Notes under the pieces: generated by a model | The model's input: the letters and a program-made list of their open reading frames with translations, nothing else | Databases searched by the model: none | Told to the model about the DNA's origin: nothing | Translations under genes and position numbers: made by a program | Source of the DNA: a virus | Length of the DNA stretch: 36,327 nt | Direction: 5' to 3' (one strand) | Virus record (IMG/VR): IMGVR_UViG_3300038701_001548 | Coordinates: 1-36,327 of that record | Shown: piece by piece, positions 12,769 to 27,927 of the stretch | Layout of the letters: each line of letters starts with the position of its first letter | Position numbering within the stretch: the first letter of the stretch is position 1

Positions 12769-13132
12769 TGCAATAGCTTCAATACTCGGTTCACCCGCTG
12801 TCATCAGTAAAGGTATGGAACTAATTGATGACGCTTTTGAGAGTGACACGGAAAAGCGTGAGAGCAAGACAAAAACAAAAATCCAGTTACTTCAGGCATA
12901 TGCCCCATTTAAATTGGCGCAACGTTATATCGCCCTGATGTTTTCGTTTATTTTTTTAACGAGTTTTTTCATCGTACTTGTCATGACTTTAGCGGACATA
13001 GGCGATCCGGAAAAAGTGTTCAAAGTTCTCGACCAATTTAAAATTGGTTGGGTTATGACTACTATCGTTTTATTTTATTTTGGCGGTGGTTTAGTCGAAA
13101 GTATTGGCACGACTAAGAATAACAAACCTTAA
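12758..13132 (+). CDS. Holin, three-transmembrane GTA-like type
   Basis: This 124-residue protein starts at the ATG at 12758, preceded by an AGGA sequence four bases upstream. An upstream TTG in frame would add six residues but has a poorer context. It has a possible short hydrophobic N-terminus (MIFSAIASILG), a charged helix, then two clear membrane segments at about residues 57-80 (IALMFSFIFLTSFFIVLVM) and 97-115 (IGWVMTTIVLFYFGGGLVE). The KLAQRYIALMF entry and the FYFGGGLVES exit resemble the three-TM holin family described for gene-transfer-agent-type lysis cassettes. A holin would form the inner-membrane hole that triggers lysis. The stop codon shares TTAA with the stop of the converging primase gene. 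Confidence 0.7.
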   Translation: MIFSAIASILGSPAVISKGMELIDDAFESDTEKRESKTKTKIQLLQAYAPFKLAQRYIALMFSFIFLTSFFIVLVMTLADIGDPEKVFKVLDQFKIGWVMTTIVLFYFGGGLVESIGTTKNNKP

Positions 13133-15243: not shown

Positions 15244-16642
15244 TTTTTACCCCGTCAACTACTGCTTTTGCTACATTATCCTTGCGCAATAACGCGTCAC
15301 CCGCTGCTGCTTCAATTTCAGAAGAAATCAAATCAACATATAATACGAATTCTGCGTCCTGCCCGTGTCGGTGTGGTCTATCTTCGGCTTGTATCCTCGC
15401 ATCATAATCATAGGTCGCTTCAAAAAATGCCACAGTGCTGCATCTCATGATGTCATTACCTAATAAAGTGTGTCCATATTTTGCTGAAGTTATTTGACAA
15501 ACTATAACTCTTGATGTGTTATCGTGTTCAAACTTATCTTTTTGTTCTTGTAACTCTTCTTCTGTCATTTGTCCTTTAATCCATGATGGATTAAATTCAT
15601 CCAAGTCTTTTATTAATTTGTTAACAGAATGTCTAAAGAAAGCAAAAACTATAAGCTTACCTTCAATCTCGCCCAACAACTCTTTAATTGCTTCGGTTTT
15701 AGGTATTTTTCCTCCAATTTCTATCGCTTCCCCTTCCTCGTTAATAATGAAACCAGATGAAATTTGTTGCAACTTCATCATCTGAGTTACGACCATTCCT
15801 GCTTCAATCTCGCTAACTTCTTCAGAAAAGCCTTTTATTTCTGTAAAGAAATCCTTTTTCATGTTTAAATAGTGTTTTTCTTGGTTTTTACTTAACCCGA
15901 CCATACGTTTTGTGTGTATTTTTGGGGGGAGGTCTGTCCAGTCTTTCTTTTTGGCCCTAAATGAATGTGGTTGTAACATTTCATTCAACGCTTCTTCGTT
16001 TTTGGCCCCAACTATCTGTTTACCTCGATATCCACCCATCTTACAATATTTGTTACGGAAAGCAAAATAATTAAAATTATTGATCGCCCCTATAAACCTC
16101 AATTGTGCCCATAAGTCATGCGGCCCTTGAGAAACAGGCGCTCCAGATAAAATGCGTCTAAACGGAGAGAACTTACTTAGAGCTATTAGGTTTATAGTTC
16201 GTTTTCCATTATGTTTTTTGATGGATATGCTCTCATCCAACGTAAACATACAACGGTATTTTTTCATCACTTCTTCTGCGGCCAAAACTGCCTTTGCTCG
16301 TCCAACAGCGAAACCCTCATAGTTAATGATCCAGATGAAGGGTTTGTTTTTCGGTTTAGGGGTCTCGGGCCACTTAACGACTTCTACTTTTTCACTTAAA
16401 CCCCAATTTCTTATTTCATTGGACCATGTTTGTTTTAAACTCATGGGACAAACAACTATTAAACCTCTCACTTCATCTTTAACAAATAACGAAATAAATT
16501 CGTTGAGTACAACAGCTGTTTTCCCTAAACCCATTTCCATGAAATACGCGAAACCGGGCAACATCCACGCCCGATTTGCTGCTACGGTCTGTACTTCGTA
16601 GGGTTCCCCCTTAAGAACCCACATTTTCAACATCCGTATCAT
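15221..16642 (-). CDS. SNF2-like superfamily 2 helicase
   Basis: This protein has about 473 residues. Walker A MGLGKT is at residues 37-42, then VVCPMSLKQTW (motif Ia), TLDES at 134-138 (motif II), and LSGAPVSQGPHDLWAQLRFI (motif III) at about 167. The second RecA lobe has LIVFAFFRHSVNKLI and the motif VI region RIQAEDRPHRHGQ near residue 425. This is the arrangement of phage SNF2-like DNA translocases, which act in replication, recombination or fork remodelling. The start is uncertain: ATGs at 16642, 16633 and 16622 are all possible, and the last has the best upstream GGATG. It overlaps DatZ upstream and the primase downstream, so the three genes are probably co-translated. Confidence 0.85.
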   Translation of the reverse strand: MIRMLKMWVLKGEPYEVQTVAANRAWMLPGFAYFMEMGLGKTAVVLNEFISLFVKDEVRGLIVVCPMSLKQTWSNEIRNWGLSEKVEVVKWPETPKPKNKPFIWIINYEGFAVGRAKAVLAAEEVMKKYRCMFTLDESISIKKHNGKRTINLIALSKFSPFRRILSGAPVSQGPHDLWAQLRFIGAINNFNYFAFRNKYCKMGGYRGKQIVGAKNEEALNEMLQPHSFRAKKKDWTDLPPKIHTKRMVGLSKNQEKHYLNMKKDFFTEIKGFSEEVSEIEAGMVVTQMMKLQQISSGFIINEEGEAIEIGGKIPKTEAIKELLGEIEGKLIVFAFFRHSVNKLIKDLDEFNPSWIKGQMTEEELQEQKDKFEHDNTSRVIVCQITSAKYGHTLLGNDIMRCSTVAFFEATYDYDARIQAEDRPHRHGQDAEFVLYVDLISSEIEAAAGDALLRKDNVAKAVVDGVKNGFQEGS

Positions 16643-17183
16643 TAGTTGGTATTCTAGAAGTAACTTCCATACCTAAATGTGGCGCAACGTACTTATCCCA
16701 CAAAGTATTTTTTGTTTCCCTATCTTCTAACCAAGGGAGGTTTTCCCATGCTCGATTTAATCTCTCCATTGAGTTGACTAAAAAAGGGGTAACTGATTTA
16801 TTTCCTAATTCTATTTCATCTGTCAAAAAGAAACATTCATCTAATAAATCAGCACATTTTATGATAGATTTGATTTCATCAGATAGGATCAATTGTGGGC
16901 CGAAACGTCTTTGTGTTTCGCTGAACCTGTACGCTCCCATTTTTTCTTTGTCCGAAATGTTTCTTTTTACTGGCCCCGGAATATCAGACATAAAACATTC
17001 ATCGATGTCATGGTACAATGCGGCATGGGCCAAAAAACCTTCGTCAAATCCGAGCCAATAACCTAATTGTTCCGCGTAAATGGCCACGTAAAAAGAATGT
17101 TCCGCCACGGATTGTGTTCTAATTGTTCTTGCGATGCCCCATCTTGGAACAAAAGCTAAATCTCTGTATTCTCGTTCAAACAT
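16611..17183 (-). CDS. datZ: DatZ-like HD-domain dATP triphosphohydrolase
   Basis: This 190-residue HD-domain protein starts at the ATG with a strong GAGGAG six bases upstream; the longer in-frame start lies in the terminator and is unlikely. Metal ligands are His29 (SVAEHS), His58-Asp59 (ALYHDIDE) and Asp112 (KCADLLDE). The N-terminal FVPRWGIARTIR keeps Trp15 and Ile17. In the cyanophage S-2L enzyme the equivalent Trp and Ile shape a pocket that accepts adenine and excludes the 2-amino group. The predicted reaction is dATP to deoxyadenosine plus triphosphate, clearing dATP so that aminoadenine is used instead. It sits just downstream of the PurZ gene and an intrinsic terminator. A YfbR-type 5'-nucleotidase is the alternative, but the PurZ neighbour favours DatZ. 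Confidence 0.82.
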   Translation of the reverse strand: MFEREYRDLAFVPRWGIARTIRTQSVAEHSFYVAIYAEQLGYWLGFDEGFLAHAALYHDIDECFMSDIPGPVKRNISDKEKMGAYRFSETQRRFGPQLILSDEIKSIIKCADLLDECFFLTDEIELGNKSVTPFLVNSMERLNRAWENLPWLEDRETKNTLWDKYVAPHLGMEVTSRIPTNDTDVENVGS

Positions 17184-17201
17184 TACATTCTCCTCTCTAT
17201 G

Positions 17202-17223
17202 AAAAAAGGGGGCCGAAGCCCCC
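17202..17223 (-). terminator. Intrinsic terminator between the purZ operon and datZ
   Basis: Read on the minus strand, a perfect GGGGGC / GCCCCC stem with a TTCG tetraloop is followed by six T residues. It lies after the 145-residue gene (stop at 17232) and just before the ribosome-binding site of datZ. Partial read-through would set datZ and helicase expression below purZ, or a promoter between them is missing from view. Confidence 0.92.
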
Positions 17224-17231
17224 ACTAGTTA

Positions 17232-17669
17232 CTAGTTAAACGGGTAAATCGGGTTCCCCAATTCACGTGTTCGTTTGTTGTCTTGGAAGAATTTAACCCC
17301 TGTTTCTTTGTGAGACCATATATAAGAAACAAGACGGTTGTTTTCTGTCCAATTGCCGTGGAAAACGAAGTCTTTTTTAGTAACGGTATATTCTTTGCCA
17401 TCAATTTTCATCGTGACTTCTTTGTCTGTCCCAATATCTGGTTCAGGTTCTGCTTTTTTGATGACGTTGAATTCTCTCCACGCTAAATCGCGCAATTTTG
17501 AGTCCACTACAAATGGGACTAGCCCACGTATAACTGGCAACTCGGGAAGACCTGATTGTGTGAATGCGTCAGGGTCTTCCGGGTCAAGTTGTCTGATAAC
17601 CTCAACCAACTTCTTGATTTTTTCTTCTTGCGGGATTTCTGGTAATGGTTCGTTGCTTTCTTCAGTCAT
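17232..17669 (-). CDS. Conserved phage protein of unknown function, downstream of purZ
   Basis: This 145-residue protein starts at an ATG whose ATGA overlaps the stop of the PurZ fusion, with AAGGA eight bases upstream. It is acidic at the N-terminus (EESNEPLPEIPQEEK). The recognisable middle is LPVIRGLVPFVVDSKLRDLA and the C-terminus is KDFVFHGNWTENNRLVSYIW. No transmembrane segment or known catalytic motif is visible. Tight coupling to purZ suggests a role in the same nucleotide or DNA-replication process, but I do not recognise a family and make no functional claim. Confidence 0.7.
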   Translation of the reverse strand: MTEESNEPLPEIPQEEKIKKLVEVIRQLDPEDPDAFTQSGLPELPVIRGLVPFVVDSKLRDLAWREFNVIKKAEPEPDIGTDKEVTMKIDGKEYTVTKKDFVFHGNWTENNRLVSYIWSHKETGVKFFQDNKRTRELGNPIYPFN

Positions 17670-19099
17670 AGTAATTTTCCTTTCATAACATTCCACGCTA
17701 TCATCATCGCGAAATTTGCTACATCAGCGGCTTCAAGAAAAATCTCAATAAAGTTGCCACCACGGATCGCGTCTTTCAACTCGTCCACTTCATCAAGTAA
17801 TCTTTTAAATAAAACGTCCACATTGCGTTCTTCCCATCCGCCTTTATGGTCATTTTTTCTGAGTTTGTGTTCCATTGCATGGGCCAGCATCATGACCTCG
17901 CGACGTATGGGGGCAGGGGTCTCGATATGGTCGCTCTCCCCGGACGTCGCATCGCGTCCTGGTCTAGATACCCTAGGCGCTATAGGCGTAGCGGACGTCG
18001 TGTCCTCTACGCCTCCTGGGGGCTTAGCAATAGTCCCGCCCGTCACATAGGGTTTAACGTTTGCCTCTTTTGGTCCAGTACCCAAATAAATATCTGGATT
18101 GATTTGTTCCTCATGATTGACGGCGGATATTTTGCGCAACAAGTTTAACAATTCTTCTTGTTCACAGTAATTAGCGAAATTTAAAAATATGCTTGCTGGT
18201 CTTACACAGGTTAACGATCTATGATATTGAATTTCAGAGAATGTTGCTACTCTCCTTACCCGTTTAGTAACGGTGGTTCTTTCAGGGCCAAGTTGTAAAT
18301 CGTCCCACGTTTTTTCAACCGAATCAGGATAGAATGGACCACTTGTTCCTATTTCTTTTCCTTCTTCATCAACAATGTTCCCTACCCGTATGGGGTAAGT
18401 CCTTAGGGTCATATGCACATTACCTAAGAATGAAGGGTGAACGCCCGCATCTGACATACCTTGAGCTACCGACACTTCGCGTGACGTACAATAAGGATAA
18501 GAAAGGCCCCCATTTAAACCTAAATCCACACCTTGCGGTATTTCCATAAATACCGTCGACCCTTGTTTCATTTTTAAATTTAAATCGACATCTGCTATAG
18601 AAAAATTAGGAGTGTTTTTGTCTGGGAAATTTGGGAAAAAGTCTCCAGCTAGAATGCCGCTGCGTTTAACTTTATCGGCTAGAGCAGCGCCGACCCCTTT
18701 TTGGGTGGATGCTAATTTAGTGGCAGCAGAATCCCTATGTTTTTCACTATGCCTATGCATCGGTAGGATTATGGCCGCACGAGGATGGATATAAATTCTT
18801 TCGGGGTTAACTTTTAATTCAGTAATTTCTTTTATTAAAAGTTCTGGGTCGATGATCGATCCTGCCGACAAGAAAATTTTACTTTTTTCATTCAGCACTC
18901 CGGAAACCGGGAGATGGAAACATATAAAACTACGTTCCCTATCGATGTAAGTATGTCCAGCATTTGGGGCCGCGTTTGTAACTGCCAAATCAAAAGTGTC
19001 GCGCTTCGCCATGTAACCAGAATAAAGACCTTTTCCGGTTGAGCCAAATTGTCCGTCTATGATGCAATTAAACTTCCCTTTTGCGAAAAATTCAGTCAT
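17666..19099 (-). CDS. purZ: PurZ-MazZ fusion: aminoadenylosuccinate synthetase joined to a nucleotide pyrophosphohydrolase domain
   Basis: This is a single 477-residue frame. Residues 1-352 are an adenylosuccinate synthetase homologue: the P-loop GQFGSTGKG (16-24) replaces the bacterial GQWGDEGKGK, so the catalytic Asp of PurA is Ser20, while PNAGHT (45-50) keeps the catalytic His49. That Asp-to-Ser change marks phage PurZ, which joins dGMP and aspartate to make the precursor of dZMP. Residues 353-398 are a Pro/Thr/Gly linker. Residues 399-477 have HKLRKNDHKGGW and a MazG-type ExxE...ExxD set (Glu437, Glu440, Glu456, Asp459), like the dATP/dGTP pyrophosphohydrolase MazZ that yields dGMP. The ATG overlaps the upstream stop. 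Two Met codons (403-404) after GAGG could permit separate translation of the second domain. Confidence 0.88.
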   Translation of the reverse strand: MTEFFAKGKFNCIIDGQFGSTGKGLYSGYMAKRDTFDLAVTNAAPNAGHTYIDRERSFICFHLPVSGVLNEKSKIFLSAGSIIDPELLIKEITELKVNPERIYIHPRAAIILPMHRHSEKHRDSAATKLASTQKGVGAALADKVKRSGILAGDFFPNFPDKNTPNFSIADVDLNLKMKQGSTVFMEIPQGVDLGLNGGLSYPYCTSREVSVAQGMSDAGVHPSFLGNVHMTLRTYPIRVGNIVDEEGKEIGTSGPFYPDSVEKTWDDLQLGPERTTVTKRVRRVATFSEIQYHRSLTCVRPASIFLNFANYCEQEELLNLLRKISAVNHEEQINPDIYLGTGPKEANVKPYVTGGTIAKPPGGVEDTTSATPIAPRVSRPGRDATSGESDHIETPAPIRREVMMLAHAMEHKLRKNDHKGGWEERNVDVLFKRLLDEVDELKDAIRGGNFIEIFLEAADVANFAMMIAWNVMKGKLL

Positions 19100-19352
19100 T
19101 TTTATCTTCCTTCAATTGACGTGATGCTAGGGTTGCGTATCCGGCGATGTCATCCCAATGATCATGGAGAGTGTGATCACCAGCAATGATCCTAGCTATC
19201 TTTGTTGAAATTAAATCCAAAGCTTCAAGTAACACGGGGTCCGTGATTTTTTCTCGTGCTATTGCTTTGATTGCTTGAGATACGCCCGATAATTCTGCAA
19301 AATCGCCATGAACTGAACCTCTTTCTTCTAAAAGTTCCTCAATCAACCCCAT
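19092..19352 (-). CDS. DUF6378-like phage protein
   Basis: This is an 86-residue soluble helical protein. The segment EELLEERGSVHGDFAELS at the start, then IAGDHTLHDHWDDIAGYATL near the end, match a small family frequent in phage nucleotide-metabolism regions (DUF6378 pattern). Its conserved Glu and Asp residues resemble those of all-alpha nucleotide pyrophosphohydrolases, so a MazG-like relation is possible but unproven. The frame is open much further upstream, but that part shadows the nuclease gene, so I place the start at the ATG for MGLIEELL. No good ribosome-binding site is seen; translation may be coupled, as the start overlaps the end of the nuclease gene. Its stop overlaps the ATG of the PurZ fusion. 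Confidence 0.65.
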   Translation of the reverse strand: MGLIEELLEERGSVHGDFAELSGVSQAIKAIAREKITDPVLLEALDLISTKIARIIAGDHTLHDHWDDIAGYATLASRQLKEDKND

Positions 19353-19752
19353 AGATGATTCTGCGTATGATCGCGTCGATGTTCCAGGTTTCCCCTCTTC
19401 GTTTTGTTTGGATAAGGGTTCCATGGTCTTCGACATGGGTTGCATCGGCGCTTGTTCCAACCCAAAGTTCCCAATAGTTAGTTCGAATTTTAATACACAC
19501 TGCCCATCCGACATAACCCCCAACTCTGCAGTGCTTCCTAATCCACCTTCTTTGTAATTCAGTAAGCTTAATTTTCTGCCCACGGGATGTTGTATATTTA
19601 AGTTCCACCCATGCAAGTTGAAACTGAGGTGCTTTAAACCACGTATCAGGACGTCCTTTGTTGTGGTCTGCTGTGTTGGCTTCTGCGTGGTATCCAAGTT
19701 GTTTGGCATCTTTCATTAACTCCGATCTAAATGAATTTTCATTGGTGGCCAT
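19339..19752 (-). CDS. PD-(D/E)XK (VRR-NUC-like) nuclease
   Basis: This 137-residue protein has a compact nuclease core: FRSELMKDAKQLGYHA helix, then GRPDTWFK (Asp36) and WVELKY (Glu50, Lys52), which form the PD-(D/E)xK signature. A basic helix KLTELQRRWIRKH and VGGYVGWAV follow. Small proteins of this type in phages act on branched or structured DNA, for example in Holliday junction or recombination processing. It follows the DNA polymerase gene after four bases and has AAGGA nine bases before its ATG. The motif is clear; the exact DNA substrate cannot be told. Confidence 0.78.
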   Translation of the reverse strand: MATNENSFRSELMKDAKQLGYHAEANTADHNKGRPDTWFKAPQFQLAWVELKYTTSRGQKIKLTELQRRWIRKHCRVGGYVGWAVCIKIRTNYWELWVGTSADATHVEDHGTLIQTKRRGETWNIDAIIRRIIYGVD

Positions 19753-19756
19753 GATT

Positions 19757-21529
19757 TTAATCCTTCAACCAATTTGTCCCGAATGAAGCTTCCTCCCAAT
19801 TAATTCCAGTTTCTGAGTCAACTGCCATGGGCACATTCATCTGAAATACATCGTCCGGCCCAAATGACTCCATAATTTCTTTTGCACGTTTGTCTTGTTC
19901 TTCACAACCATATGGTACGAACCAATCTAACTCATCATGCACCTGTAAACGGAGAGTACAGTCTCCCCCTTGTGATTGAAAATACTCTTCTACTTCAACC
20001 ATTTTCAATTTTGTGATGTCAGCACTGGACATTTGAATAACAGCATTTCCGGCTTTGTATGCGGCCCTAAGATCAGGGAAACGACGCCGACGACCCAATT
20101 TAGACCGAACATACCCTCTTGTTCTGCCCCAATGTTCACATTTCTTTAAAAATTCTTTCGCTTCTGGCACCATTACGTCATATCTTCTACGGTACTCTTT
20201 CGCTTCTGGCACTGGTATTCCTAAAGAATTTGCCAGAGTTGGCACACCCATTCCGTACACCATTCCAAGGTTCATTCTTTTGGCTGTCGGGTCCCGCTCA
20301 ACGTCAAGCATTTTAGCAATAGAAGAGTGGATATCAATAGGTGGTTCCGATCTATATCCATCGACAAGCATGGGCGCTCCAGTGTAGTCCGTAAACACTC
20401 TGAACTCTTGTTGTGAATAATCATTTGCCGACCAATAAGTGCCTTTTTCAGCTTCAAATATTGATCTGAAGATTGGTGCGAGAATTTTGTCACGTTTTGG
20501 TACCTGCTGCATGTTGGGGTCAGAAGACGATAACCTTCCGGTCACTGTGCCGAAGTCATCCATTTTTAGTTGATTAAACGTACAGTGTACTCGCCCTTGC
20601 CACAAATGCCTTTCCAATAAGGGGTTGATAAAGGAATTTTCCATGTTAGTAATTTTCCGCGCTTGGATAATTGAACTTCCAAGTCCGAATGTTTTAAGCC
20701 AGCCCTCAGTGAATGAGGGGTTCCCCTTGGGAGTGAGAGGCCAATTCGTGTTCCCGGTGTCTGTAAATAATTCAAGTAATTTGGGGCGCGATCTAACATC
20801 TTCGATACCGATTGGAAGCATATTCGCGACAATCTCAAGTTTTGAGGACATCGCGTCTCTGACTTTTTCAAGTACCTCTTCGTTGACCGGGACACCGCGT
20901 CGCTCCATGTTGAATAAAATTCGTATAATTCTGCATTCGATACCGTGCAACAAAGATAATCCGTCGTTTTCGATGTAATCATGTTGTTTTTTCCATACTT
21001 GCCAAGTAGAAGTACCATCACCTTCTGCATAAGAAACACCTATTGGGTCATTACCTTCTAATTTATGAAAATGTTCCATTTGTTTGTATGTAGGCTGACC
21101 ACCAAATTTTTGGGCCAAATATTCGTACATGTCCTTAGATTTTTTAACTTGTACGTTCATCACAGTGGAACATTTTTCTAGATTGTATGCGCCTTGGTTT
21201 TCATCGATCAGTGATTGGTTAATTTGGGTGCACTCGATAGGGCCGTTTATTTCCAAATCGTGGGACTTGCACATATGCATATCAAATTTGAAATTGTGGC
21301 CGATTTTCTTTATGTTGAAATTTGATAACAGGCTAGAGACCCACTTCTCTACGGGTTCTGCATCTAGGTTACCGCCTCCCTCATGCCGTACAGGGAGATA
21401 GAGCGTCTCGTCAGAACCTTCGCCCCACGTGACCACGTGACCTACGATTTTATTTGTTTTCCAATCTAAACCGTCTGTTTCACAGTCATAAACAATTGCT
21501 TCGGCTTGTGATAAATCGGGTAAATCCAT
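19757..21529 (-). CDS. dpoZ: Family A DNA polymerase with proofreading domain (DpoZ-like)
   Basis: This 590-residue replicative polymerase starts at the ATG preceded by GAGAGGA; an in-frame ATG 30 bases earlier lacks a site. The 3'-5' exonuclease domain is intact: ExoI DCETDG (15-20), ExoII HNFKFD (78-83), ExoIII YAEGD (167-171). Polymerase motifs are A DYSQQEFR (370-377), B with Lys417 and Tyr425, and C VHDE (530-533). There is no 5'-3' exonuclease domain. Leu421 sits where E. coli Pol I has Phe762. PolA-type enzymes with exonuclease encoded beside PurZ are called DpoZ and favour incorporation of aminoadenine. Without phylogeny, DpoZ rather than generic phage PolA is an inference from the neighbours. 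Confidence 0.85.
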   Translation of the reverse strand: MDLPDLSQAEAIVYDCETDGLDWKTNKIVGHVVTWGEGSDETLYLPVRHEGGGNLDAEPVEKWVSSLLSNFNIKKIGHNFKFDMHMCKSHDLEINGPIECTQINQSLIDENQGAYNLEKCSTVMNVQVKKSKDMYEYLAQKFGGQPTYKQMEHFHKLEGNDPIGVSYAEGDGTSTWQVWKKQHDYIENDGLSLLHGIECRIIRILFNMERRGVPVNEEVLEKVRDAMSSKLEIVANMLPIGIEDVRSRPKLLELFTDTGNTNWPLTPKGNPSFTEGWLKTFGLGSSIIQARKITNMENSFINPLLERHLWQGRVHCTFNQLKMDDFGTVTGRLSSSDPNMQQVPKRDKILAPIFRSIFEAEKGTYWSANDYSQQEFRVFTDYTGAPMLVDGYRSEPPIDIHSSIAKMLDVERDPTAKRMNLGMVYGMGVPTLANSLGIPVPEAKEYRRRYDVMVPEAKEFLKKCEHWGRTRGYVRSKLGRRRRFPDLRAAYKAGNAVIQMSSADITKLKMVEVEEYFQSQGGDCTLRLQVHDELDWFVPYGCEEQDKRAKEIMESFGPDDVFQMNVPMAVDSETGINWEEASFGTNWLKD

Positions 21530-21539
21530 TGTTTCCTCT

Positions 21540-21734
21540 CTAAGAAATTGCTTGTTCATATATTCTGTTCAGGTTTTTCCACATTTTGCCCGATATAAAA
21601 ATCTCGGACCCAATTTCCTCATATTGCGATCTTATGTCAGAAATAAACTCTTTATTCCATCCACGCAAATCGCAATCGCGTATCGTGTTTAGAATTTCCA
21701 TGAGGCGTTCTTCTTCCTCAGTGTTTATTGACAT
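21540..21734 (-). CDS. Small acidic protein of unknown function
   Basis: This 64-residue protein starts at an ATG preceded by a good GGAGAG, six bases away; a longer in-frame start is a shadow of the HNH gene. It is charged and helical (INTEEEERLMEILNTIRDCD), with a C-terminal IFISGKMWKNLNRIYEQ. No membrane segment or known motif is seen. It lies between the HNH endonuclease gene, whose last bases it overlaps, and the polymerase gene. A link to the polymerase is only positional. Confidence 0.65.
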   Translation of the reverse strand: MSINTEEEERLMEILNTIRDCDLRGWNKEFISDIRSQYEEIGSEIFISGKMWKNLNRIYEQAIS

Positions 21735-22015
21735 TTGTCTCTCCGTATTTGATTTTCTTTGTGCGAGACTTGTTCGAGATGGTCTGGGTTGACGCAGCAC
21801 CGAACCCGGCACGTATGATCGATTTGCGCATTTCTTCTAATTCGTCCCACAAAGGCAGTATAGGAGAAACGATGGGCTGCAATGGTTTGTCCTTTAATTG
21901 AGAAACGTCCATATCCACCTCCTCTTCCTGTGCCACTGTCGCTCCCTGTCCATAACCAACACCCACTGTTTGGTTCCGGTGAAACATGCGACATAAATCT
22001 TTCAACAATACCCAT
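21725..22015 (-). CDS. HNH homing endonuclease
   Basis: This 96-residue protein starts at the ATG at 22015, with AAGGA six bases upstream. It has the phage HNH_3-type order: GCWLWTGS near residue 19, GYGRFSIKGQTIAAHRFSY, then QIDHTCRVRCCVNPDHLEQV with the catalytic His and the zinc/structural Cys-His residues. Such free-standing HNH enzymes cut DNA and often lie next to, or inside, DNA polymerase or replication genes of phages, promoting their own spread. Here it sits between the ssDNA-binding-like protein and the polymerase block. I see no intron or split gene around it. Confidence 0.85.
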   Translation of the reverse strand: MGIVERFMSHVSPEPNSGCWLWTGSDSGTGRGGGYGRFSIKGQTIAAHRFSYTAFVGRIRRNAQIDHTCRVRCCVNPDHLEQVSHKENQIRRDKCQ

Positions 22016-22026
22016 TTTAATCCTTA

Positions 22027-22136
22027 TCGTAGAACACATCTAGGTGTAAAAACACTGGGAAAGATGCATCATCGCCTAATACTTTTTAAAATTATTCTCT
22101 TTCGGCCTAGACATTCCAATACAATGTGTTCTACGA
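22027..22136. repeat. Perfect 13-bp inverted repeat in the gap upstream of the HNH gene
   Basis: TCGTAGAACACAT (22027-22039) is the exact complement of ATGTGTTCTACGA (22124-22136). The arms enclose 84 bp of AT-rich sequence with no gene, between the terminator of the ssDNA-binding-like gene and the start of the HNH gene. It could be a footprint of the endonuclease gene's insertion, an operator pair or a transcript structure. Confidence 0.85.
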
Positions 22137-22167
22137 AAAGAATGGGGGGAGGCAGCAACTCCCCCCA
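22136..22167 (-). terminator. Terminator after the ssDNA-binding-like gene
   Basis: On the minus strand, a 9-bp stem (TGGGGGGAG / CTCCCCCCA) with a 7-base loop is followed by ATTCTTTTC. It lies about 40 bases past the stop of the 280-residue gene and before the HNH and polymerase genes, so it separates the early transcript into two parts. The T-run is short and interrupted, so termination may be incomplete. Confidence 0.75.
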
Positions 22168-22206
22168 CCCCTCAACATTCAACAGCGCGGGGTAGCACTA
22201 AGAATG

Positions 22207-23049
22207 TTATACGTCAGACCCGTCGCCATAATCCGCACCTTGGGGATCAGCTTCTTGTGATCCCTCGATGTCAGCAATGTTGAGTCCTTGTTCTGAGAAC
22301 TGTTCGTAGAGTTTTTCGCATTTATTAAAGAGTTCTTCATCCTCAACAAAACCATCGGTTTCAATGCGATAATTGCGGAACTCTTCGCCTGCTCCGTTCT
22401 GATCAACAATTGATGTCATGCGGAACTGCAACCCATATGAAGGGGCTTCGATCATTTTGAGCTTGCCCATAAACTTACGAGCAACGGTGACAGACGACCT
22501 TTGCAGTGTAAGCACACAAGGTGAAAGATCAGGACGTTCCTTAATCCAACACACTGTGCTGTACATTTTTGTGGCTGCAGGTGCGGAATCCGGATTTTCT
22601 GGATCACTTGAACCCCAAGCACTCAACCCGCTTTCTTCAACAGTTTCTTTTGTTTCCCAGGTAACGGTTTTTTTGATGTCCTTGTAGGGTTGGACTTCAA
22701 ATTTTTGGTTCGGCGGGTTCCAGTGAACACCATCGTCAGCACGGGCCAAAATTCCGCCACCAGAATGGCGAGGGTTCCACAAAATAAAGCGAATATCGGA
22801 ATAAATAGGGATGATAGTAAGTTCATCTCCAAGTTCCTCTTCCATGATATTGTGATAGAATTGGCCAGGACGACAATCTCCGTTGTTCACTTCGTCCGAC
22901 AATGATTGCAACAAAACAAGTCGCGGAATTTCGACATCAGAATTACTAATACCTTCTGTGCCCCTTCCCGCTTTATTCTGCATGAATGAAGGCATCTCAG
23001 GTAGATTGCCCTCGGTTTTTTTCGCTACTGCTTTCTTAGCCATGACCAT
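22207..23049 (-). CDS. Putative single-stranded DNA-binding protein
   Basis: This 280-residue protein has a Lys/Ala-rich start (AKKAVAKKTEG), a globular middle with several Trp residues and strands (VEIPRLVLLQSLSDEV, ELTIIPIYSDIRFILWNPR, FMGKLKMIEAPSYGLQFRM), and a strongly acidic tail ending in ADPQGADYGDGSDV. An acidic C-terminus after an OB-like core is typical of phage and bacterial ssDNA-binding proteins, where it recruits replication enzymes. The start could be 23049 or 23043; the AGAGGA lies close to the first and at normal distance from the second. Position before the polymerase block fits. No family signature is decisive. Confidence 0.55.
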   Translation of the reverse strand: MVMAKKAVAKKTEGNLPEMPSFMQNKAGRGTEGISNSDVEIPRLVLLQSLSDEVNNGDCRPGQFYHNIMEEELGDELTIIPIYSDIRFILWNPRHSGGGILARADDGVHWNPPNQKFEVQPYKDIKKTVTWETKETVEESGLSAWGSSDPENPDSAPAATKMYSTVCWIKERPDLSPCVLTLQRSSVTVARKFMGKLKMIEAPSYGLQFRMTSIVDQNGAGEEFRNYRIETDGFVEDEELFNKCEKLYEQFSEQGLNIADIEGSQEADPQGADYGDGSDV

Positions 23050-23081
23050 TTTCCTCTCTGTGGCTAGTTAAAATTTGTGAA

Positions 23082-23333
23082 TTACGTTACGCGTCTAGAA
23101 CGCCAACCTTTCGTGGCGTGTAAATAATGTTCATGTGATCCACTATTATCAAAAAAGATGATTCTTCTTTCATAAGTGCCTTTCGGGGTGTCACCAACAA
23201 CGTGCTCAAATACTCTGTTTTTTCGACGATTGTTGATTTTCTTCGCTTTTTTGAGGTAATGGCGCGCCATCATATTACTTGTGCGCTTTTCCTTTGTGCT
23301 GTCGGCTTTTGCTAAAATGCTACTTTTAGACAT
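23082..23333 (-). CDS. Small basic protein of unknown function
   Basis: This 83-residue protein is rich in Lys and Arg (YLKKAKKINNRRKNRVFEHV, KGWRSRRVT at the end), with an AAAGGTG ribosome-binding sequence before the ATG. A charged helix is followed by a short strand-rich part (ERRIIFFDNSGSHEHYLHA). The composition would suit nucleic-acid binding, but there is no known motif. It lies between the ssDNA-binding-like gene and a 177-residue unknown, all in one minus-strand operon. Confidence 0.6.
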   Translation of the reverse strand: MSKSSILAKADSTKEKRTSNMMARHYLKKAKKINNRRKNRVFEHVVGDTPKGTYERRIIFFDNSGSHEHYLHATKGWRSRRVT

Positions 23334-23334
23334 G

Positions 23335-23868
23335 TTACACCTTTGTCATTGAAGTGTTGTCGTAGTACTGACTATTAAACAACTCATCATCAAGTTCTTT
23401 TGCTTGAGATAAGAGGTCTTTGGCCAATGCTGATAAGGTCGAAGAATTAACAGTTTCTTGGATAATATCTCCAAGACCATTTTCACGTAACCATTCGTAA
23501 GCTTCAGCTTTCTTGTCCTTTTTGATGGACGCCCTAAGTTGAGAACTGACCGTGAACCGAAATCCGATTTTGTCGAGCGTGATCGTTTTTAAATCTTCAC
23601 TCTCAAATCGCTCTGGGATGGTTTTCTCTTTAAGCATGACCTTTGCCGCATTCACAGATTTAGTCAACTTGGAAATCTTATCATGGAAGGTAAAAATTCT
23701 GTTGAACCCCACCAAAAGAGAAGCCGTTTTTGCGGTTTTAGCCTCGTCAAAGGCCCAGAAACGCATTTGGTTGATCACGCCCTCAACCGCGTCCAAAAGA
23801 TGTCCTGTGCTAATATCACCATCCAGAACACGTTTATTTAGTTCTTTTATAAATTCGTCGTTCGTCAT
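23335..23868 (-). CDS. Unknown helical phage protein
   Basis: This 177-residue protein starts at an ATG with GAGAGGA eight bases upstream. It is largely alpha-helical, with DISTGHLLDAVEGVINQM near the start, FHDKISKLTKSVNAAKVML in the middle and a C-terminal half containing EAYEWLRENGLGDIIQ. The C-terminal part (about 110-160) resembles conserved proteins encoded near the ssDNA-binding gene of other podoviruses, but I cannot name a family or a role. Confidence 0.65.
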   Translation of the reverse strand: MTNDEFIKELNKRVLDGDISTGHLLDAVEGVINQMRFWAFDEAKTAKTASLLVGFNRIFTFHDKISKLTKSVNAAKVMLKEKTIPERFESEDLKTITLDKIGFRFTVSSQLRASIKKDKKAEAYEWLRENGLGDIIQETVNSSTLSALAKDLLSQAKELDDELFNSQYYDNTSMTKV

Positions 23869-23881
23869 TTTGTTTTCCTCT

Positions 23882-24202
23882 CTAATAATCGGCTATTTTA
23901 AGTTTATAATAGCCTCTGTTTTCCCGGTCCCATTTTAGCGCCGGAATACTGCTAACCCCCTTTACGTCGGTTAAAACCCAAATAGCCATAGCTATGGCCT
24001 CAGGTGCACCAGTTAAAAGGAGAAAATCTCTGTTCATATTGAAGTTTCTAAGTTTGGCTTTCATAATGTCATGAATGACCATAATTCTGTCTTCTGCGTC
24101 ATCAGGAAACGCGTCACGTTCAATTAAAGAAATAAGTTTTCCATGTTTTTTAGCTTTATTGAAATTCAACTTACCATTATTTTGAATTACGTAAACTGCC
24201 AT
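23882..24202 (-). CDS. Unknown conserved phage protein
   Basis: This 106-residue protein starts at an ATG with AGAGGA five bases upstream. The C-terminal half, DFLLLTGAPEAIAMAIWVLT followed by PALKWDRENRGYY, is of a type I have seen repeatedly in phage early regions, where it is annotated as hypothetical. It is soluble and has no catalytic signature. A strong hairpin lies just upstream in its leader. Confidence 0.65.
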   Translation of the reverse strand: MAVYVIQNNGKLNFNKAKKHGKLISLIERDAFPDDAEDRIMVIHDIMKAKLRNFNMNRDFLLLTGAPEAIAMAIWVLTDVKGVSSIPALKWDRENRGYYKLKIADY

Positions 24203-24223
24203 ATTTTCCTCTCTAAAAACTTA

Positions 24224-24266
24224 CCGCACCACTGGCTTCTTGGAGGAAGGGGGGTCAGTGGTGCGG
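24224..24266 (-). terminator. Strong hairpin in the leader of the 106-residue gene, terminator or attenuator
   Basis: The arms CCGCACCACTG (24224-24234) and CAGTGGTGCGG (24256-24266) are an exact 11-bp pair with a 21-base loop. On the minus strand the stem is followed by TAAGTTTTTAG and then the GAGAGGA site. A second, weaker hairpin (TTATCACCGGGAGGCGATAA, 24269-24288) lies beside it. Together they could attenuate transcription that starts at the promoter candidate near 24.3 kb. Confidence 0.6.
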
Positions 24267-24295
24267 CATTATCACCGGGAGGCGATAACCACATC

Positions 24296-24322
24296 TTAAT
24301 ATATCTCCCTATGCCTAGTCAA
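24296..24322 (-). promoter_or_regulatory. Candidate sigma70-type promoter, minus strand
   Basis: TTGACT (24317-24322) is followed on the minus strand by TATTAA (24296-24301) after 15 bases, or by TTAAGA after 17 bases. It would drive the two-hairpin leader and the genes from 24202 down. The -35 box is near consensus; the -10 spacing is short or its match poor, so this is tentative. Confidence 0.4.
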
Positions 24323-24335
24323 TAGGGGATAAACG

Positions 24336-24419
24336 TCAGTGCATTCCTTCAATCAGAACAAGGGCCGTGATAAACACTACCAGAACCACCAATTGAATTT
24401 TCCACTCATGATTTTTCAT
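24336..24419 (-). CDS. 27-residue single-span membrane peptide
   Basis: The ATG is preceded by a good AAGGAG, six bases upstream. The product begins MKNHEWKIQ and continues with a hydrophobic segment of about 14 residues (LVVLVVFITALVLI) ending EGMH. The frame has a single transmembrane helix with charged or polar ends. The size is too small for a confident family, but the ribosome-binding site and membrane pattern make a translated peptide likely. It could disturb the host membrane or bind a host membrane protein. Confidence 0.6.
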   Translation of the reverse strand: MKNHEWKIQLVVLVVFITALVLIEGMH

Positions 24420-24432
24420 AATAACTCCTTAT

Positions 24433-24770
24433 TTATAAGACCCGTCCGACTACATATCGACTACGTATGTGACTACGGGTCCGACTACATATCTCGGTAT
24501 AGGACGACGCCCGAGGGGACGGGGCCTCTGGCCATCTGACTACGCATACTACGTATCGAGAGGGGTCTCTCTGCGAGGAGGAGCCAAAAGAAGGAAGGAA
24601 AGAAAAAACACTCCTCCCTTCCTTTTTAAAACCTCTAAAAAATAAAAGAAAAATACGTAGTACCTGTAGTAAGAGAGGCCCTAAGGCCCCGTACGTCTTT
24701 GGTTTTGGATATGATTTAAAACCCGTAGTCAAACCCGTAGTCAAACCCGTAGTATCTGTAGTCACCATTG
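24433..24770. repeat. Structured repeat copy A: concentric inverted repeats
   Basis: This block of about 330 bp without a long gene contains nested inverted arms. Left GACTACGGG (24471-24479) pairs with right CCCGTAGTC (24722 and later copies). ACGGGGCCT (24519-24527) pairs with AGGCCCCGT (24684-24692). ACTACGTAT (24548-24556) pairs with ATACGTAGT (24653-24661). AAGGAAGG (24591-24598) pairs with CCTTCCTT (24617-24624). The innermost pair is followed by TTTTT on the plus strand, like a terminator. Copy B at 27.54-27.87 kb has the same order with partly changed bases, and shares exact stretches. The block also provides the minus-strand promoter neighbourhood for the 27-residue peptide gene. The end of a tiny gene overlaps its right edge. 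Confidence 0.85.
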
Positions 24771-24839
24771 GACTGACAATGCTAACACAATAAAAACGGC
24801 TAGAATAAACAAATACCAGTCTTTAAACATTTTATCCAT
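24762..24839 (-). CDS. 25-residue single-span membrane peptide
   Basis: The frame MDKMFKDWY is followed by LFILAVFIVLALSV and ends QW. AAGGA lies close before the first ATG; a second in-frame ATG gives a slightly shorter product. It is the second tiny one-helix peptide in this stretch, after the 27-residue peptide on the other side of repeat A. Both have a charged, aromatic N-terminus before the helix. It overlaps the 43-residue frame upstream by 40 bases. Confidence 0.55.
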   Translation of the reverse strand: MDKMFKDWYLFILAVFIVLALSVQW

Positions 24840-24931
24840 GTTCCTTTGTTTCCTTGTTGAGTGACTACCACTTCACACGATCTCATATCAGCTTCTAGTT
24901 CTTCTATGCTCATATGTTTCAAGTTCGACAT
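24800..24931 (-). CDS. 43-residue small protein of unknown function
   Basis: The frame starts at an ATG with AAGGATG about eight bases upstream, directly after the stop of the 80-residue gene. The product begins MSNLKHMSIEELEADMRSC, an acidic helix, and then a short strand-like part (EVVVTQQGNKGTWIKC). Start signal and gapless packing support translation. Nothing is recognised in it. Confidence 0.5.
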   Translation of the reverse strand: MSNLKHMSIEELEADMRSCEVVVTQQGNKGTWIKCLKTGICLF

Positions 24932-24932
24932 T

Positions 24933-25175
24933 TTAATCATCCTTTATGAGGGAGGTTATGGACTCAATGTGTCCTCCGGTATTTTCGTGGTAGGTTTTTA
25001 CCACTTCACAAGTGTTTAATGTGTTCATATCATTTTTAACTATGTCTCTCTTTATATCTACGCCCCAATCGCCCATTTTTTCCGCGACTTCTAATGTAGA
25101 TGGAATTCTCTTAAGAAAGTTTTTCAGTTCATGATATGCTTTCCATACCATAAATCTTCGTGTTTGTATTTTCAT
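24933..25175 (-). CDS. Small protein with possible winged-helix segment
   Basis: This 80-residue protein starts at an ATG with GAGGGG six bases upstream; a longer in-frame start is a shadow of the next gene upstream. The segment FMVWKAYHELKNFLKRIPST then LEVAEKMGDWGVDIKRDIV resembles a small helix-turn-helix of the LexA N-terminal style (helix, Pro-Ser/Thr turn, EVAEKMG). It could be a DNA-binding regulator of the early genes. The similarity is short and seen by eye only. Confidence 0.5.
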   Translation of the reverse strand: MKIQTRRFMVWKAYHELKNFLKRIPSTLEVAEKMGDWGVDIKRDIVKNDMNTLNTCEVVKTYHENTGGHIESITSLIKDD

Positions 25176-25205
25176 GTCAATCCCCTCTCTATTTTGACAC
25201 CTTTT

Positions 25206-25236
25206 TAGCCCCGCACCATTTCTGGCAACGGGGCTA
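25206..25236 (-). terminator. Stem-loop between two minus-strand genes
   Basis: TAGCCCCG (25206-25213) and CGGGGCTA (25229-25236) form an 8-bp perfect stem with a 15-base loop, after the stop of the 216-residue gene. On the minus strand the stem is followed by AAAAAGG, not T, so it is not a classical intrinsic terminator. It may protect the transcript end or work with Rho. Confidence 0.45.
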
Positions 25237-25254
25237 ATCCGGGGGCCTGTAGAT

Positions 25255-25905
25255 TTAAGCTGCTTTTTCTTTCTTTTCAGCTTTAGGTTTAGGTTTGGTT
25301 TCTTTCGCTTTTGCTGCTTTAGCATCGGCGGCTTTTTTCTCACGTGCCTTAAATTCTTTATCGGCTTCGTCAGACCTAAGTTTAGCGGCTTGTGCGGCAT
25401 TCTTGCCATGGAAAGTAGGTGCTTTATTTTTCTTAGGGTCAGCGTTATGTTTCTTTTGACGAGTACGGATCATATTGCCGAGGTTCATACGACGCATGCC
25501 ATGATTAAGGTGTTTCCAGCGATCATAGCTGATGTCGTTTTCTTTGGCGATTGAAGCGAGTTCTTCGTCAGTTTGGCCAAGGAGTGCGTTCGCGACGTCA
25601 TCACCGTTGTTCATGGCGAATGATCCGGAGGCTGTTTTCACGCGTTTGTCGATTACGTAACTTTCGCGTTTGCTGTCGTCAACCGCTTTCCATTTTACGG
25701 ATTTTTCGGATAGGTCATATTCTTTGCTGTCGATTTCGACAAGGAAGCGTTTTTCTTTGGTGTCTTCACCGATTACAATACCCGTGCCTTTGCTTGTGAA
25801 GACTTTACGTCCAACATATTCACCGGGAACCCAATTGCGTACTGGAGCTGGTTTTTCAGCTTTTTCGGCTGGTTTTTCTGTTTTAGAGGTTTTTTGTTTC
25901 GTCAT
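25255..25905 (-). CDS. Basic accessory protein, paralogous to the 181-residue protein upstream
   Basis: This 216-residue protein starts at an ATG with AGGAG eight bases upstream. An N-terminal Lys/Glu-rich arm (about 1-25) precedes a small beta domain (GEYVGRKVFTSKGTGIVIGE, like a KOW/SH3-type barrel). Then NNGDDVANALLGQTDEELA and YDRWKHLNHGMRRMNLGNMI follow. The C-terminal 55 residues are Ala/Lys-rich with PKPKAEKKEKAA at the end, a style seen in histone-like or nucleic-acid-binding proteins. The W-x-HLNxG-x-x-x-MN-x-x-N pattern recurs in the gene at 26267-26812. No known enzyme is visible. Confidence 0.65.
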   Translation of the reverse strand: MTKQKTSKTEKPAEKAEKPAPVRNWVPGEYVGRKVFTSKGTGIVIGEDTKEKRFLVEIDSKEYDLSEKSVKWKAVDDSKRESYVIDKRVKTASGSFAMNNGDDVANALLGQTDEELASIAKENDISYDRWKHLNHGMRRMNLGNMIRTRQKKHNADPKKNKAPTFHGKNAAQAAKLRSDEADKEFKAREKKAADAKAAKAKETKPKPKAEKKEKAA

Positions 25906-25947
25906 CTTAATTCTCCTGAGGTTAAAGTGTATCTGTATTAAAGCTAC

Positions 25948-25976
25948 ATTAAAACATGGCATGTGAGGTTTGTCAA
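25948..25976 (-). promoter_or_regulatory. Sigma70-type promoter for the 216-residue gene
   Basis: On the minus strand TTGACA (25971-25976) and TTTAAT (25948-25953) are 17 bases apart. The predicted transcript starts near 25941, about 36 bases before the ATG at 25905. The spacer contains CCTCAC and CATGTTTT, elements also found in the upstream region of the 75-residue gene near 27.1 kb. Confidence 0.72.
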
Positions 25977-25997
25977 GTCTCTTTGCCCGTTTTTAAA

Positions 25998-26189
25998 TCA
26001 CTGTATCCACCTGTCTGGGCATTCTGGGCTATCACAGTTCGTGTGTGGGTACCACATGGCGAGGTCTCCTGCGTTCCGAATGTCTTCTGGGGTTTCCATC
26101 TTATATGCGGTAATCCCCATCATATTTAGTTGTTCTTTGGCTCGTCGGATGGGTTCTGAGATTAGAGCTTCGAGTAGTGTGTTTGTCAT
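25998..26189 (-). CDS. Small protein of unknown function
   Basis: This 63-residue protein starts at an ATG with AGAGGAA seven bases upstream. The N-terminal half is a helix (TNTLLEALISEPIRRAKEQL); the C-terminal half is WYPHTNCDSPECPDRW, with two Cys, a His and acidic residues that could hold a metal ion, but there are too few ligands for a clear zinc finger. It lies between the two paralogous accessory genes. Confidence 0.6.
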   Translation of the reverse strand: MTNTLLEALISEPIRRAKEQLNMMGITAYKMETPEDIRNAGDLAMWYPHTNCDSPECPDRWIQ

Positions 26190-26244
26190 TTTGGTTCCTC
26201 TCTATTTGGCTTGCTCATCAGTACCTGCTTGCCGGGTCAGGTAG

Positions 26245-26262
26245 ACGGGGCTTGCGCCCCGT
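26245..26262 (-). terminator. Hairpin after the 181-residue gene
   Basis: ACGGGGC and GCCCCGT pair exactly over 7 bp with a 4-base loop, five bases past the stop codon. A second inverted pair (ACCTG / CAGGT, about 26223-26242) follows. Neither has a T-run, so this may slow polymerase or stabilise the RNA rather than terminate it. Confidence 0.4.
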
Positions 26263-26266
26263 TTCG

Positions 26267-26812
26267 CTATTTGGTTTCTTCTTGTACTTCCCAGATCGTG
26301 TCACCGATTGTCACAGCTTCTCCTCTGCGAACCATGCCGCGCAGGACGTTGCTTGTGTTCATCTGTTGTAGGCCTGGGTTCAAGTGTAGCCATTTTTTGG
26401 CTTTTTCTTCGATTTTATTGGCTTTCTGAACTTTTACCAGTAGGTCGTGGTCGGTTTTGTCTCGTCCTTTGGCTTGGGGCACTGCTGTATGTGCTTTAAG
26501 GGCCGCTGCTACCTCGTCACCGCAGTTCTGCTCACTGCCGTACCGTTGTCGGTATTTTTTCTTGATCAGGCCTCCGGGTTCTAGTCCGTCTTGCAGCATT
26601 TCGTCCCCTACTGCGGCCAGTGCCATGTCCAGTGGGAGTGGGAGTTGTTGGTTTAGTTCTTCTATGAACTCGTCCCAGCCTGTAAAGTCGAAGTCCTCAG
26701 GGATCACCAGTGTTTCGATTTTCTTACGTCCTTCGAAAAAGTCCATCGCTGAACCATCTTTATTCTGCTTGACGCGCGTCACTTCGTGTGTATGTTCTGT
26801 TGTGTTTGTCAT
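26267..26812 (-). CDS. Accessory protein, paralogous to the 216-residue protein
   Basis: This 181-residue protein starts at an ATG with GAGGGG seven bases upstream. The N-terminal part is acidic (IPEDFDFTGWDEFIEELN), the middle has SEQNCGDEVAAALKAH and the C-terminal part KKWLHLNPGLQQMNTSNVLR. The last two match NNGDDVANALLG and WKHLNHGMRRMNLGNMI of the 216-residue protein in the same order, so the two genes share a domain of about 80 residues and probably arose by duplication. Its N-terminus is different, and there is no Lys-rich tail. Function is unknown; the common domain may bind nucleic acid or a host factor. Confidence 0.65.
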   Translation of the reverse strand: MTNTTEHTHEVTRVKQNKDGSAMDFFEGRKKIETLVIPEDFDFTGWDEFIEELNQQLPLPLDMALAAVGDEMLQDGLEPGGLIKKKYRQRYGSEQNCGDEVAAALKAHTAVPQAKGRDKTDHDLLVKVQKANKIEEKAKKWLHLNPGLQQMNTSNVLRGMVRRGEAVTIGDTIWEVQEETK

Positions 26813-26813
26813 C

Positions 26814-27041
26814 TTAAATCCCCTCATGTTCTGTAGGCTGGACCACACCATGTACGTCGATCACGCCACGTGGGAAAAAGTCCACAATATGGTTGATGTC
26901 TTCGTGCGTAGTGCAAAACCTTGAGCCAAAAAACTCAAACGCTTGTTCGCGACTCGATACTGCTGCTACACAGTCTTTATCGAATACGACGCCTTCAATC
27001 TCGTGACGGTGGTCTTGTCCAAAAGTTACGTATACGGTCAT
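26814..27041 (-). CDS. First gene of the minus-strand arm, unknown function
   Basis: This 75-residue protein starts at an ATG with GAGAGGAG about eight bases upstream. It is a small acidic protein (VYVTFGQDHRHEIEGVVFD, FFPRGVIDVHGVVQPTEHEG) with His-rich ends. It is the leftmost reader in transcription order, closest to the divergent intergenic region, so it should be expressed first. Proteins in this position in phages often modify host functions, but nothing in the sequence identifies one. The stop lies one base from the start of the next gene's ATG. Confidence 0.6.
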   Translation of the reverse strand: MTVYVTFGQDHRHEIEGVVFDKDCVAAVSSREQAFEFFGSRFCTTHEDINHIVDFFPRGVIDVHGVVQPTEHEGI

Positions 27042-27090
27042 CTAAAGTCTCCTCTCTAACGATGGGACGTTGCGCCCCGATCTACGAACA

Positions 27091-27119
27091 AAAAAACATA
27101 GGTGAGGTATAGCTGTCAA
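27091..27119 (-). promoter_or_regulatory. Candidate early promoter/operator upstream of the first minus-strand gene
   Basis: TTGACA (27114-27119) is on the minus strand; the -10 box is not clear (TATGTT at 13 bases or a T-run at 17). The surrounding pattern ACTTGACA, ACCTCAC and ATGTTTT is shared with the promoter at 25948-25976, which makes a common regulator or polymerase contact likely. The first gene starts about 50 bases downstream. Confidence 0.5.
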
Positions 27120-27540
27120 GTCCTGCATAAACAGAATAGGGTTGCACGGAACGCATGACCCAAGAAACGAGGAGTACGGAAGGAAACACGCGCCCACACA
27201 CGCGCGATCCGAACTAGGCTACAACTTGGAATGTGATCGAAGGATTGGGGAGAGGGTGCCGAGAACCGAGACCAGTGGCTAAATTTAATTATCAAGTTGA
27301 TTGGTACTAATATTATTTAATGAGGTACTCGGATACCGCGTCACAAACCCCTTTACATCCTATACGGCATACAGTTCTGAAGTGCGCATGGCGTCGTCCC
27401 ATAGTACGAGGGTGCCGCATCCCGAGCGTCTGCAGAAGGGACCCAGGGACCCGAAACAAGAATAGAATTTTTGCGCATATATACAGGAGGGGTCACGGAT
27501 ATAAGTTTTACGGGCCACGTGCATCGAATCTAGGAATACT
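27120..27540. other. Non-coding divergent region, part 1 (candidate origin region)
   Basis: About 420 bp between the early minus-strand promoter and repeat B contain no supported gene. I see an AT-rich stretch (27281-27320, with AATATTATTTAAT), a GC-rich patch with ACGCGC repeats around 27190, a duplicated GAGGGTGCCG (about 27254 and 27404) and small hairpins such as GGTA-CTCGGA-TACC near 27322. Divergent transcription, an AT-rich core and neighbouring inverted repeats are what an origin region would look like, but no initiator protein site is identifiable. Confidence 0.5.
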
Positions 27541-27874
27541 AACTACAGGTTGATCAATAAGAACTACGGGTCTGACTACGTATGTGACTACGGGTTTAAA
27601 TAATATCCAAACCTCCCGTCCCTCGGGGCCTCTGGGGTCTGACTACGTATCGACTACGTATCGAGAGGGGGTCTCTCTGCGGAGATATGCCAAAAGAAGG
27701 AAGGAAAGAAAAGACACGTCCCTCCTTCCTTTTTTAAAAACTCTCAGAGGGGGGGAGGAGATACGTAGTATATGTAGTAGTAGGGGCCTTCAGGCCCCGT
27801 CCTTCTTTGGCTCTGGATATGATTTCTAATACGTAGTCGATACGTAGTCACATACGTAGTACCTGTAGTTCTTA
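27541..27874. repeat. Structured repeat copy B: concentric inverted repeats at the divergent junction
   Basis: Nested exact arms, from outside in. AACTACAGGT (27541-27550) pairs with ACCTGTAGTT (27861-27870), and TAAGAACTAC (27558-27567) with GTAGTTCTTA (27865-27874). An 18-bp arm at 27575-27592 pairs with 27843-27860. CGGGGCCT (27624-27631) pairs with AGGCCCCG (27792-27799). A 21-bp arm at 27641-27661 pairs with 27829-27849; its inner part also matches 27761-27769. AAGGAAGGA (27697-27705) pairs with TCCTTCCTT (27723-27731), which is followed by TTTTTT. GGGGCC-TTCA-GGCCCC is a further local hairpin. Copy A has the same order of elements. No gene is supported inside. It sits just upstream of the late-arm promoter. 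Confidence 0.88.
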
Positions 27875-27898: not shown

Positions 27899-27927
27899 TT
27901 GTATCTTATATCTCTTGATGTTATAAT
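27899..27927 (+). promoter_or_regulatory. Promoter for the structural (late) arm
   Basis: TTGTAT (27899-27904) and a consensus TATAAT (27922-27927) are 17 bases apart. Transcription would start at about 27934, practically on the ATG at 27936. An alternative -10, TATACT at 27894-27899, would leave about 30 bases of leader but has a weak -35. It lies 25 bases after repeat B. It is the only clear promoter seen for the plus arm. Confidence 0.65.

Follow-up and report, generated by a model that had tools for sequence, protein, structure and literature searches.

The window analysed here, 36,327 bp in length, is the whole IMG/VR record of an uncultured phage. The late genes (terminase, portal and tail) run rightward, and the early genes (13129–27040) run leftward. 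The early region encodes a primase-helicase (13129–15243, minus strand), an SNF2-type helicase, an HD phosphohydrolase, a PurZ-like synthetase and a family A polymerase (19757–21559), for which the best NCBIfam match is DpoZ. Positions 16611–21559 hold a diaminopurine (Z-genome) gene set made up of the PurZ-like, DpoZ-like PolA and HD phosphohydrolase genes, with scores under the curated cut-offs for the PurZ-like protein (241 bits, cut-off 300) and the DpoZ-like PolA (341 bits, cut-off 500). The PurZ ORF may carry a C-terminal fusion, as its residues 396–473 match phrog_18269, a small family apart from PurZ.

The window has two related blocks of inverted repeats. Block B (27541–27874) is situated at the early/late divergence, with the terminase genes (27936, small-subunit-like, and 28315, TerS) immediately downstream. 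Block A (24433–24770, about 340 bp) is flanked by early genes and lies 3.1 kb leftward of block B. The GC skew has its minimum near 27 kb, which would suit an origin there, but the skew is confounded by gene direction. Between the blocks, two paralogous early proteins (25255–25962 and 26267–26851, both minus strand) have the motif HLNPGMxxMNxxNxLR in common and show distant matches in Alteromonas ZP6 and Vibrio phages. The structure model of the 26267–26851 protein is partly confident and gave no fold match. A type II hammerhead ribozyme (Rfam RF02276, 43.4 bits, gathering threshold 37) is present on the minus strand at 26204–26269, between two early genes. It begins at the stop codon of the 26267–26851 gene and was not found in the related phage L008. 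About 480 bp of non-coding DNA (27060–27541) separate the early genes from block B, and this stretch is partly alignable to L008 (GGGACCCAsGG...ATTTTTGCG).

Inverted iteron arrays in blocks A and B

A dyad-symmetry scan of the whole genome placed its two highest peaks at 27706 in block B (score 34) and 24610 in block A (score 32). The next peak in the genome scored 19, and the maxima of shuffled sequences were 17–23. The nested inverted arms described in the initial annotation are present in both blocks, which are the two strongest dyads of the genome. The dyad of block B does not extend into its flanks (score 17; shuffled maximum 20). An arm pair in block B given earlier as 21 bp is exact and measures 22 bp (27640–27661 with 27829–27850), and the exact 18-bp pair was recovered at 27575–27592 with 27843–27860.

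The arms had been described as arrays of pairing sequences. They exist, but their unit is a 9-bp iteron, ACTACRKRT, which occurs twelve times per block of ~330–340 bp in a 4-2-2-4 layout. The iterons of the left half are on the plus strand and those of the right half on the minus strand, so that every copy points inward, and this segregation is perfect in the window. All 23 of the 23 strict ACTACRKRT copies in the 36,327 bp lie inside the two blocks. When all 5-mers were scanned without bias for inverted arrays, ACTAC was found six times on the left (plus) and six times on the right (minus) in block A, and six and seven times in block B. The score of these blocks was 12, and the next best place in the genome reached 6.

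The spacings of the iterons are nearly identical in the two blocks. In block A, the outer left set of four iterons (24448–24493, plus strand) has spacings of 11-12-12 and is followed by an inner left set of two (24539–24557, plus strand), in which GACTACGCAT is a one-base variant. The inner right set of two (24653–24670) and the outer right set of four (24721–24763) are on the minus strand. The corresponding sets of block B are situated at 27541–27598 (four iterons, the first detached by 21 bp) and 27641–27661 (two) on the plus strand, and at 27761–27778 (two) and 27829–27869 (four) on the minus strand. Between the halves, a core contains a conserved GCCAAAAGAAGGAMGG and a purine/pyrimidine hairpin; the core with the conserved GCCAAAAGAAGGAAGG and the hairpin covers 24583–24627 in block A and 27689–27735 in block B. 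By eye, an A-rich run follows the core on its right side in block A and in the two L008 blocks, and is absent in block B. As stated earlier, no gene is supported in either block, although open reading frames of 111 aa (24433–24768, minus strand) and 81 aa (27584–27829, plus strand) do exist in blocks A and B, on opposite strands.

The iteron switch between related phages

Among 2.9 million viral contigs, the pattern of the block core matched only two, L008 and L010, which have practically the same block sequences. Their terminase is 72% and their primase 67% identical to those of the window. Both carry two blocks at the same gene positions as in the window, so that the blocks are conserved in position. 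Blastn cannot align these blocks to those of the window. No blastn homologues of the blocks were found in phage records. In genome contigs, eight single matches to the core pattern were obtained, about the chance expectation. No further lineages with this primase were found, and the blocks are known in two independent lineages only. Two further relatives, Alteromonas ZP6 and Vibrio 23E28.1, whose Prim-Pol/SF3 primases are beyond BLAST reach, have weak dyads only, without a comparable array.

The iteron of the relative is GCTACRKRT in both blocks, and in a 21.8-kb stretch of it (L089) all 12 of the 12 strict copies lie within these two blocks. Neither variant was found in the blocks of the other phage. 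Within a genome, the two blocks are 67% and 61% identical, as against 47–49% between genomes; this likeness argues for concerted evolution, as would be expected for sites of one trans-acting protein. Because one motif has changed together at two distant places and is confined to them, the switch points to co-evolution with a single DNA-binding protein. In L008 and L010, blocks A and B have opposite orientations, so the orientation of the block is free.

This inversion and the presence of two copies are what a functionless mobile or duplicated repeat element might show. Such an element is nevertheless highly improbable, since both lineages have the blocks at the same two positions, the spacers diverge around a preserved iteron layout, and the contig searches gave no copies beyond those of L008 and L010 and chance-level matches. 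The place of block B directly upstream of the terminase genes, where a pac site is usual, would suit a DNA packaging or end-forming site for terminase, with block A as a relic. We regard this as very unlikely, because two complete copies 3.1 kb apart are kept in two lineages and block A lies within the early region.

A more serious rival is that the blocks are operator or enhancer arrays, in which a phage regulator would bind the iterons and control the adjoining promoters. A putative rightward promoter towards terS (TTGTAT-17-TATAAT, 27899–27927, plus strand) has its extended −10 promoter-like site ~30 bp from the end of block B; it was recognized by eye, its −35 element being too weak for the scan. 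L008 has a counterpart at the same place (TTGACT-17-TATGAT). The scan also gave a putative leftward promoter beyond block A, in the direction of the replication genes (TTGACT-18-TAAGAT, 24293–24322, minus strand), ~110 bp to the left of the block; the frequency of such sites exceeds that in shuffles by only ~1.3 sd. The confinement of the iterons and the concerted motif switch would fit a regulator equally well. Against this, the gap between block A and its promoter is not conserved (~110 bp in the window, ~310 bp in L008), promoter-like matches hardly exceed the shuffled expectation, and an operator of twelve dyad-symmetric iterons would be a large one. Among the part of the early ORFs that was searched, no regulator gene was recognized. 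We consider operator arrays a serious rival, although an unlikely one.

In L008, a stable cloverleaf-like RNA (z −4.2) is predicted at 6982–7082, where the late transcript begins, after the TTGACT/TATGAT promoter and ahead of the first late gene. It gave no tRNA call and no Rfam match.

Base pairing in the blocks and in other dyads

Both strands of both blocks fold far better than shuffled sequences (z −7.9 to −9.2). This would be expected if the blocks acted as folded nucleic acid, either as a structured RNA or as a cruciform or single-strand stem-loop origin of pRN1 type. Replicons of the pRN1 type, with AEP and SF3 domains, use a 100-nt stem-loop origin whose sequence is not conserved (PMC4234260).

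The earlier suggestion that pairing itself is under selection did not survive the covariance analysis. In a four-arm alignment of the two window blocks, 2 columns co-vary between arms, compared with 15 that follow descent. In nested iteron pairs, the agreement of the variable triplets is not above that after permutation (P 0.33 and 0.24), so that left and right iterons agree across the dyad at chance level. RNAalifold over the blocks gave −46.6 kcal/mol with a positive, unfavorable covariation term, whereas single block sequences fold at −113 to −150 kcal/mol. A conserved, covarying stem-loop with little sequence conservation, as in pRN1-type origins, was thus not found. Pair counts do exceed those in shuffles (19 double-change pairs versus 11.7), but the structure was fitted to the same alignment and part of the double changes is the ACTAC/GCTAC switch itself. 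The spacers of the window contribute to folding (z −3.4 to −7.6) and, with the iterons masked, remain more stable than shuffles (z −4.1 to −6.0), whereas those of the L008 blocks fold weakly and contribute hardly anything (z −0.7 to −2.3). The left outer set of L008 block A has another right-hand set as its pairing partner. Neither block matches Rfam at the gathering threshold; a sub-threshold match to L20_leader is at chance level.

Selection for base pairing was accordingly rejected as the main signal, on the columns, the permutations and the RNAalifold term, even though the pair counts favor the fitted structure. A folded nucleic acid is a rather improbable account of the blocks, and the structured RNA form of it is disfavored. 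The symmetry is best read as a symmetric placement of protein sites together with some foldable core, and not as a conserved folded molecule.

Many terminase relatives have neither the Prim-Pol/D5 primase nor iteron blocks. At 14 of 83 loci, a different dyad occupies the same junction, a giant imperfect palindrome in which the promoter and the 5′ part of an early gene of 140–170 aa are mirrored as an inverted, frame-broken non-coding copy. The arms are about 63–73% identical over up to 370 bp. The early gene is conserved and belongs to an unnamed family, and the dyad is present in all 14 of the 14 loci that have the gene; the window and L008 lack it. Such palindromes lie at 6289–7050 in Pelagibacter phage Hodr (L090), 5850–6645 in L046, 3739–4528 in L059, 3626–4007 in L015, 2899–3254 in L041 and 4206–4692 in L043, and also in L054, L057, L061, L079 and others. 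Their arms partly co-vary between relatives (24 versus 7 and 25 versus 26 columns). Strand-specific G-U wobble was rejected as evidence for RNA in the dyads of relatives, since the raw excess of 117 to 34 vanishes when arm composition is taken into account (117 observed, 112 expected). It is conceivable, although doubtful, that in this terminase lineage of tailed phages the early/late junction holds a dyad-symmetric hub for replication and transcription that forms a class of its own, with paired 6+6 inverted iteron blocks in the lineage of the window and a giant early-gene mirror in its sisters, both kept symmetric by concerted evolution.

Dyads were also seen in other settings. In L056, two adjacent dyads (4076–4380) are situated just upstream of a Prim-Pol gene with a different helicase domain, AAA_25. 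Ochrobactrum phage OH (L105), another PurZ phage with a DUF5906 primase, has two strong dyads (748–981 and 1674–1824; scores 33 and 23) near its divergent junction. The 55-bp terminal repeats of Vibrio 23E28.1 and Ochrobactrum OH could stem from overlaps in the assembly and were left unused as evidence for genome ends.

The primase-helicase and a possible two-site origin

The 704-aa primase-helicase of the window belongs to the P4 family, with a score of 162.6 bits against TIGR01613, 'phage/plasmid primase, P4 family' (cut-off 108.7). It contains Prim-Pol, D5_N and SF3 domains and a DUF5906 match, and at the C terminus Pox_D5 scores 20.8 bits, under the cut-off of 21.4. The nearest PDB sequence is 7ola (E 3.7e-14), in the helicase region, and the N terminus matches pRN1 ORF904 weakly (E 0.045). 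The AlphaFold model is poor (pLDDT 34). The C-terminal 75 residues (630–704) are the least conserved part, with 44% identity between the two lineages versus 78% in SF3. This divergence is as expected if the specificity had shifted, but it is not proof; fast divergence would also be expected without such a change.

P4 needs two cis sites, ori and crr, that are a few kb apart, an arrangement shared by the two blocks. Related enzymes are self-loading initiators that recognize short repeats. One of them, SaPI Rep, binds such iterons as what appear to be two hexamers, and SCCmec Cch2, the closest homologue of which is SaPI5 Rep, binds its iterons through the C-terminal domain (PMC7581432). These systems resemble the phage in their P4-family/D5-type primase-helicase and in having several short iterons. 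They differ in that the phage has two separate, strictly inverted 4-2-2-4 blocks far from the rep gene, and in that the replicon is a complete phage with its own PolA. Phage P4 alpha shares the C-terminal family TIGR01613 and is a winged-helix initiator that binds origin repeats (PMC4234260). The likeness drawn here is one of the protein and of the two cis sites. Alpha has a Toprim primase in place of the archaeo-eukaryotic Prim-Pol of the phage. The pRN1/BIP-1 origins share the architecture of Prim-Pol, SF3 helicase and C-terminal DNA-binding domain as well as a large foldable element (PMC4234260), but they lack iterons, whereas iterons dominate the phage blocks and pairing does not co-vary.

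The paired inverted blocks are most likely where the phage's own P4-type enzyme begins genome replication. The presence of a P4-family primase-helicase and of short iterons confined to cis sites (23 of 23) agrees with such replicons. The blocks do not adjoin the rep gene: they lie at 24.4 and 27.5 kb and the gene at 13.1–15.2 kb. This distance of 9–14 kb counts against an origin, as SaPI and pRN1-type origins adjoin the rep gene, and so does the absence from block B of the A/T-rich run beside the core of block A, P4/SaPI-type replicons having an A/T-rich unwinding region between their iteron sets. Further points against are the occurrence of the blocks in only two independent lineages and the weak dyads of Alteromonas ZP6 and Vibrio 23E28.1.

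We give about an even chance to the view that the blocks form a two-site iteron origin like those of P4 and SaPI, with hexamers loading on each half. Blocks A and B would be cooperating nucleoprotein assembly sites of one replicon, either both as iteron origins or as an origin and a cis-acting helper site. Each half-block presents six iterons in one orientation, the halves facing each other across the hairpin-prone purine/pyrimidine core. The C-terminal domain of the primase-helicase would bind the iterons, and one hexamer would load per half-block, a stoichiometry that we infer from the fit of six inward sites. The enzyme might then melt the core and prime in both directions, and the family A polymerase would extend the primers. 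The need of P4 for both ori and crr would explain why there are two blocks, and the free orientation of block A fits a helper site. The two HLNPGMxxMNxxNxLR paralogues encoded between the blocks are alternative candidates for the iteron-binding protein. The initial guess of a cruciform origin is supported in part: an origin is the best-supported function, but it would act through protein-binding iterons and not through a proven cruciform. Baculovirus hr and EBV dyad symmetry elements are likewise repeated palindromic arrays that serve as origins and possibly as enhancers, by analogy only, the viruses and their proteins being unrelated to the phage.

Few Prim-Pol/SF3 phages have a mapped origin. 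If the two-site origin is correct, the blocks would provide a precise origin code, in which ACTACRKRT versus GCTACRKRT marks a change of specificity that arose in nature between two related initiators. They would also offer a clean system for studying the loading of double hexamers onto iterons in a symmetric array, with a second site whose role would be open to a deletion test.
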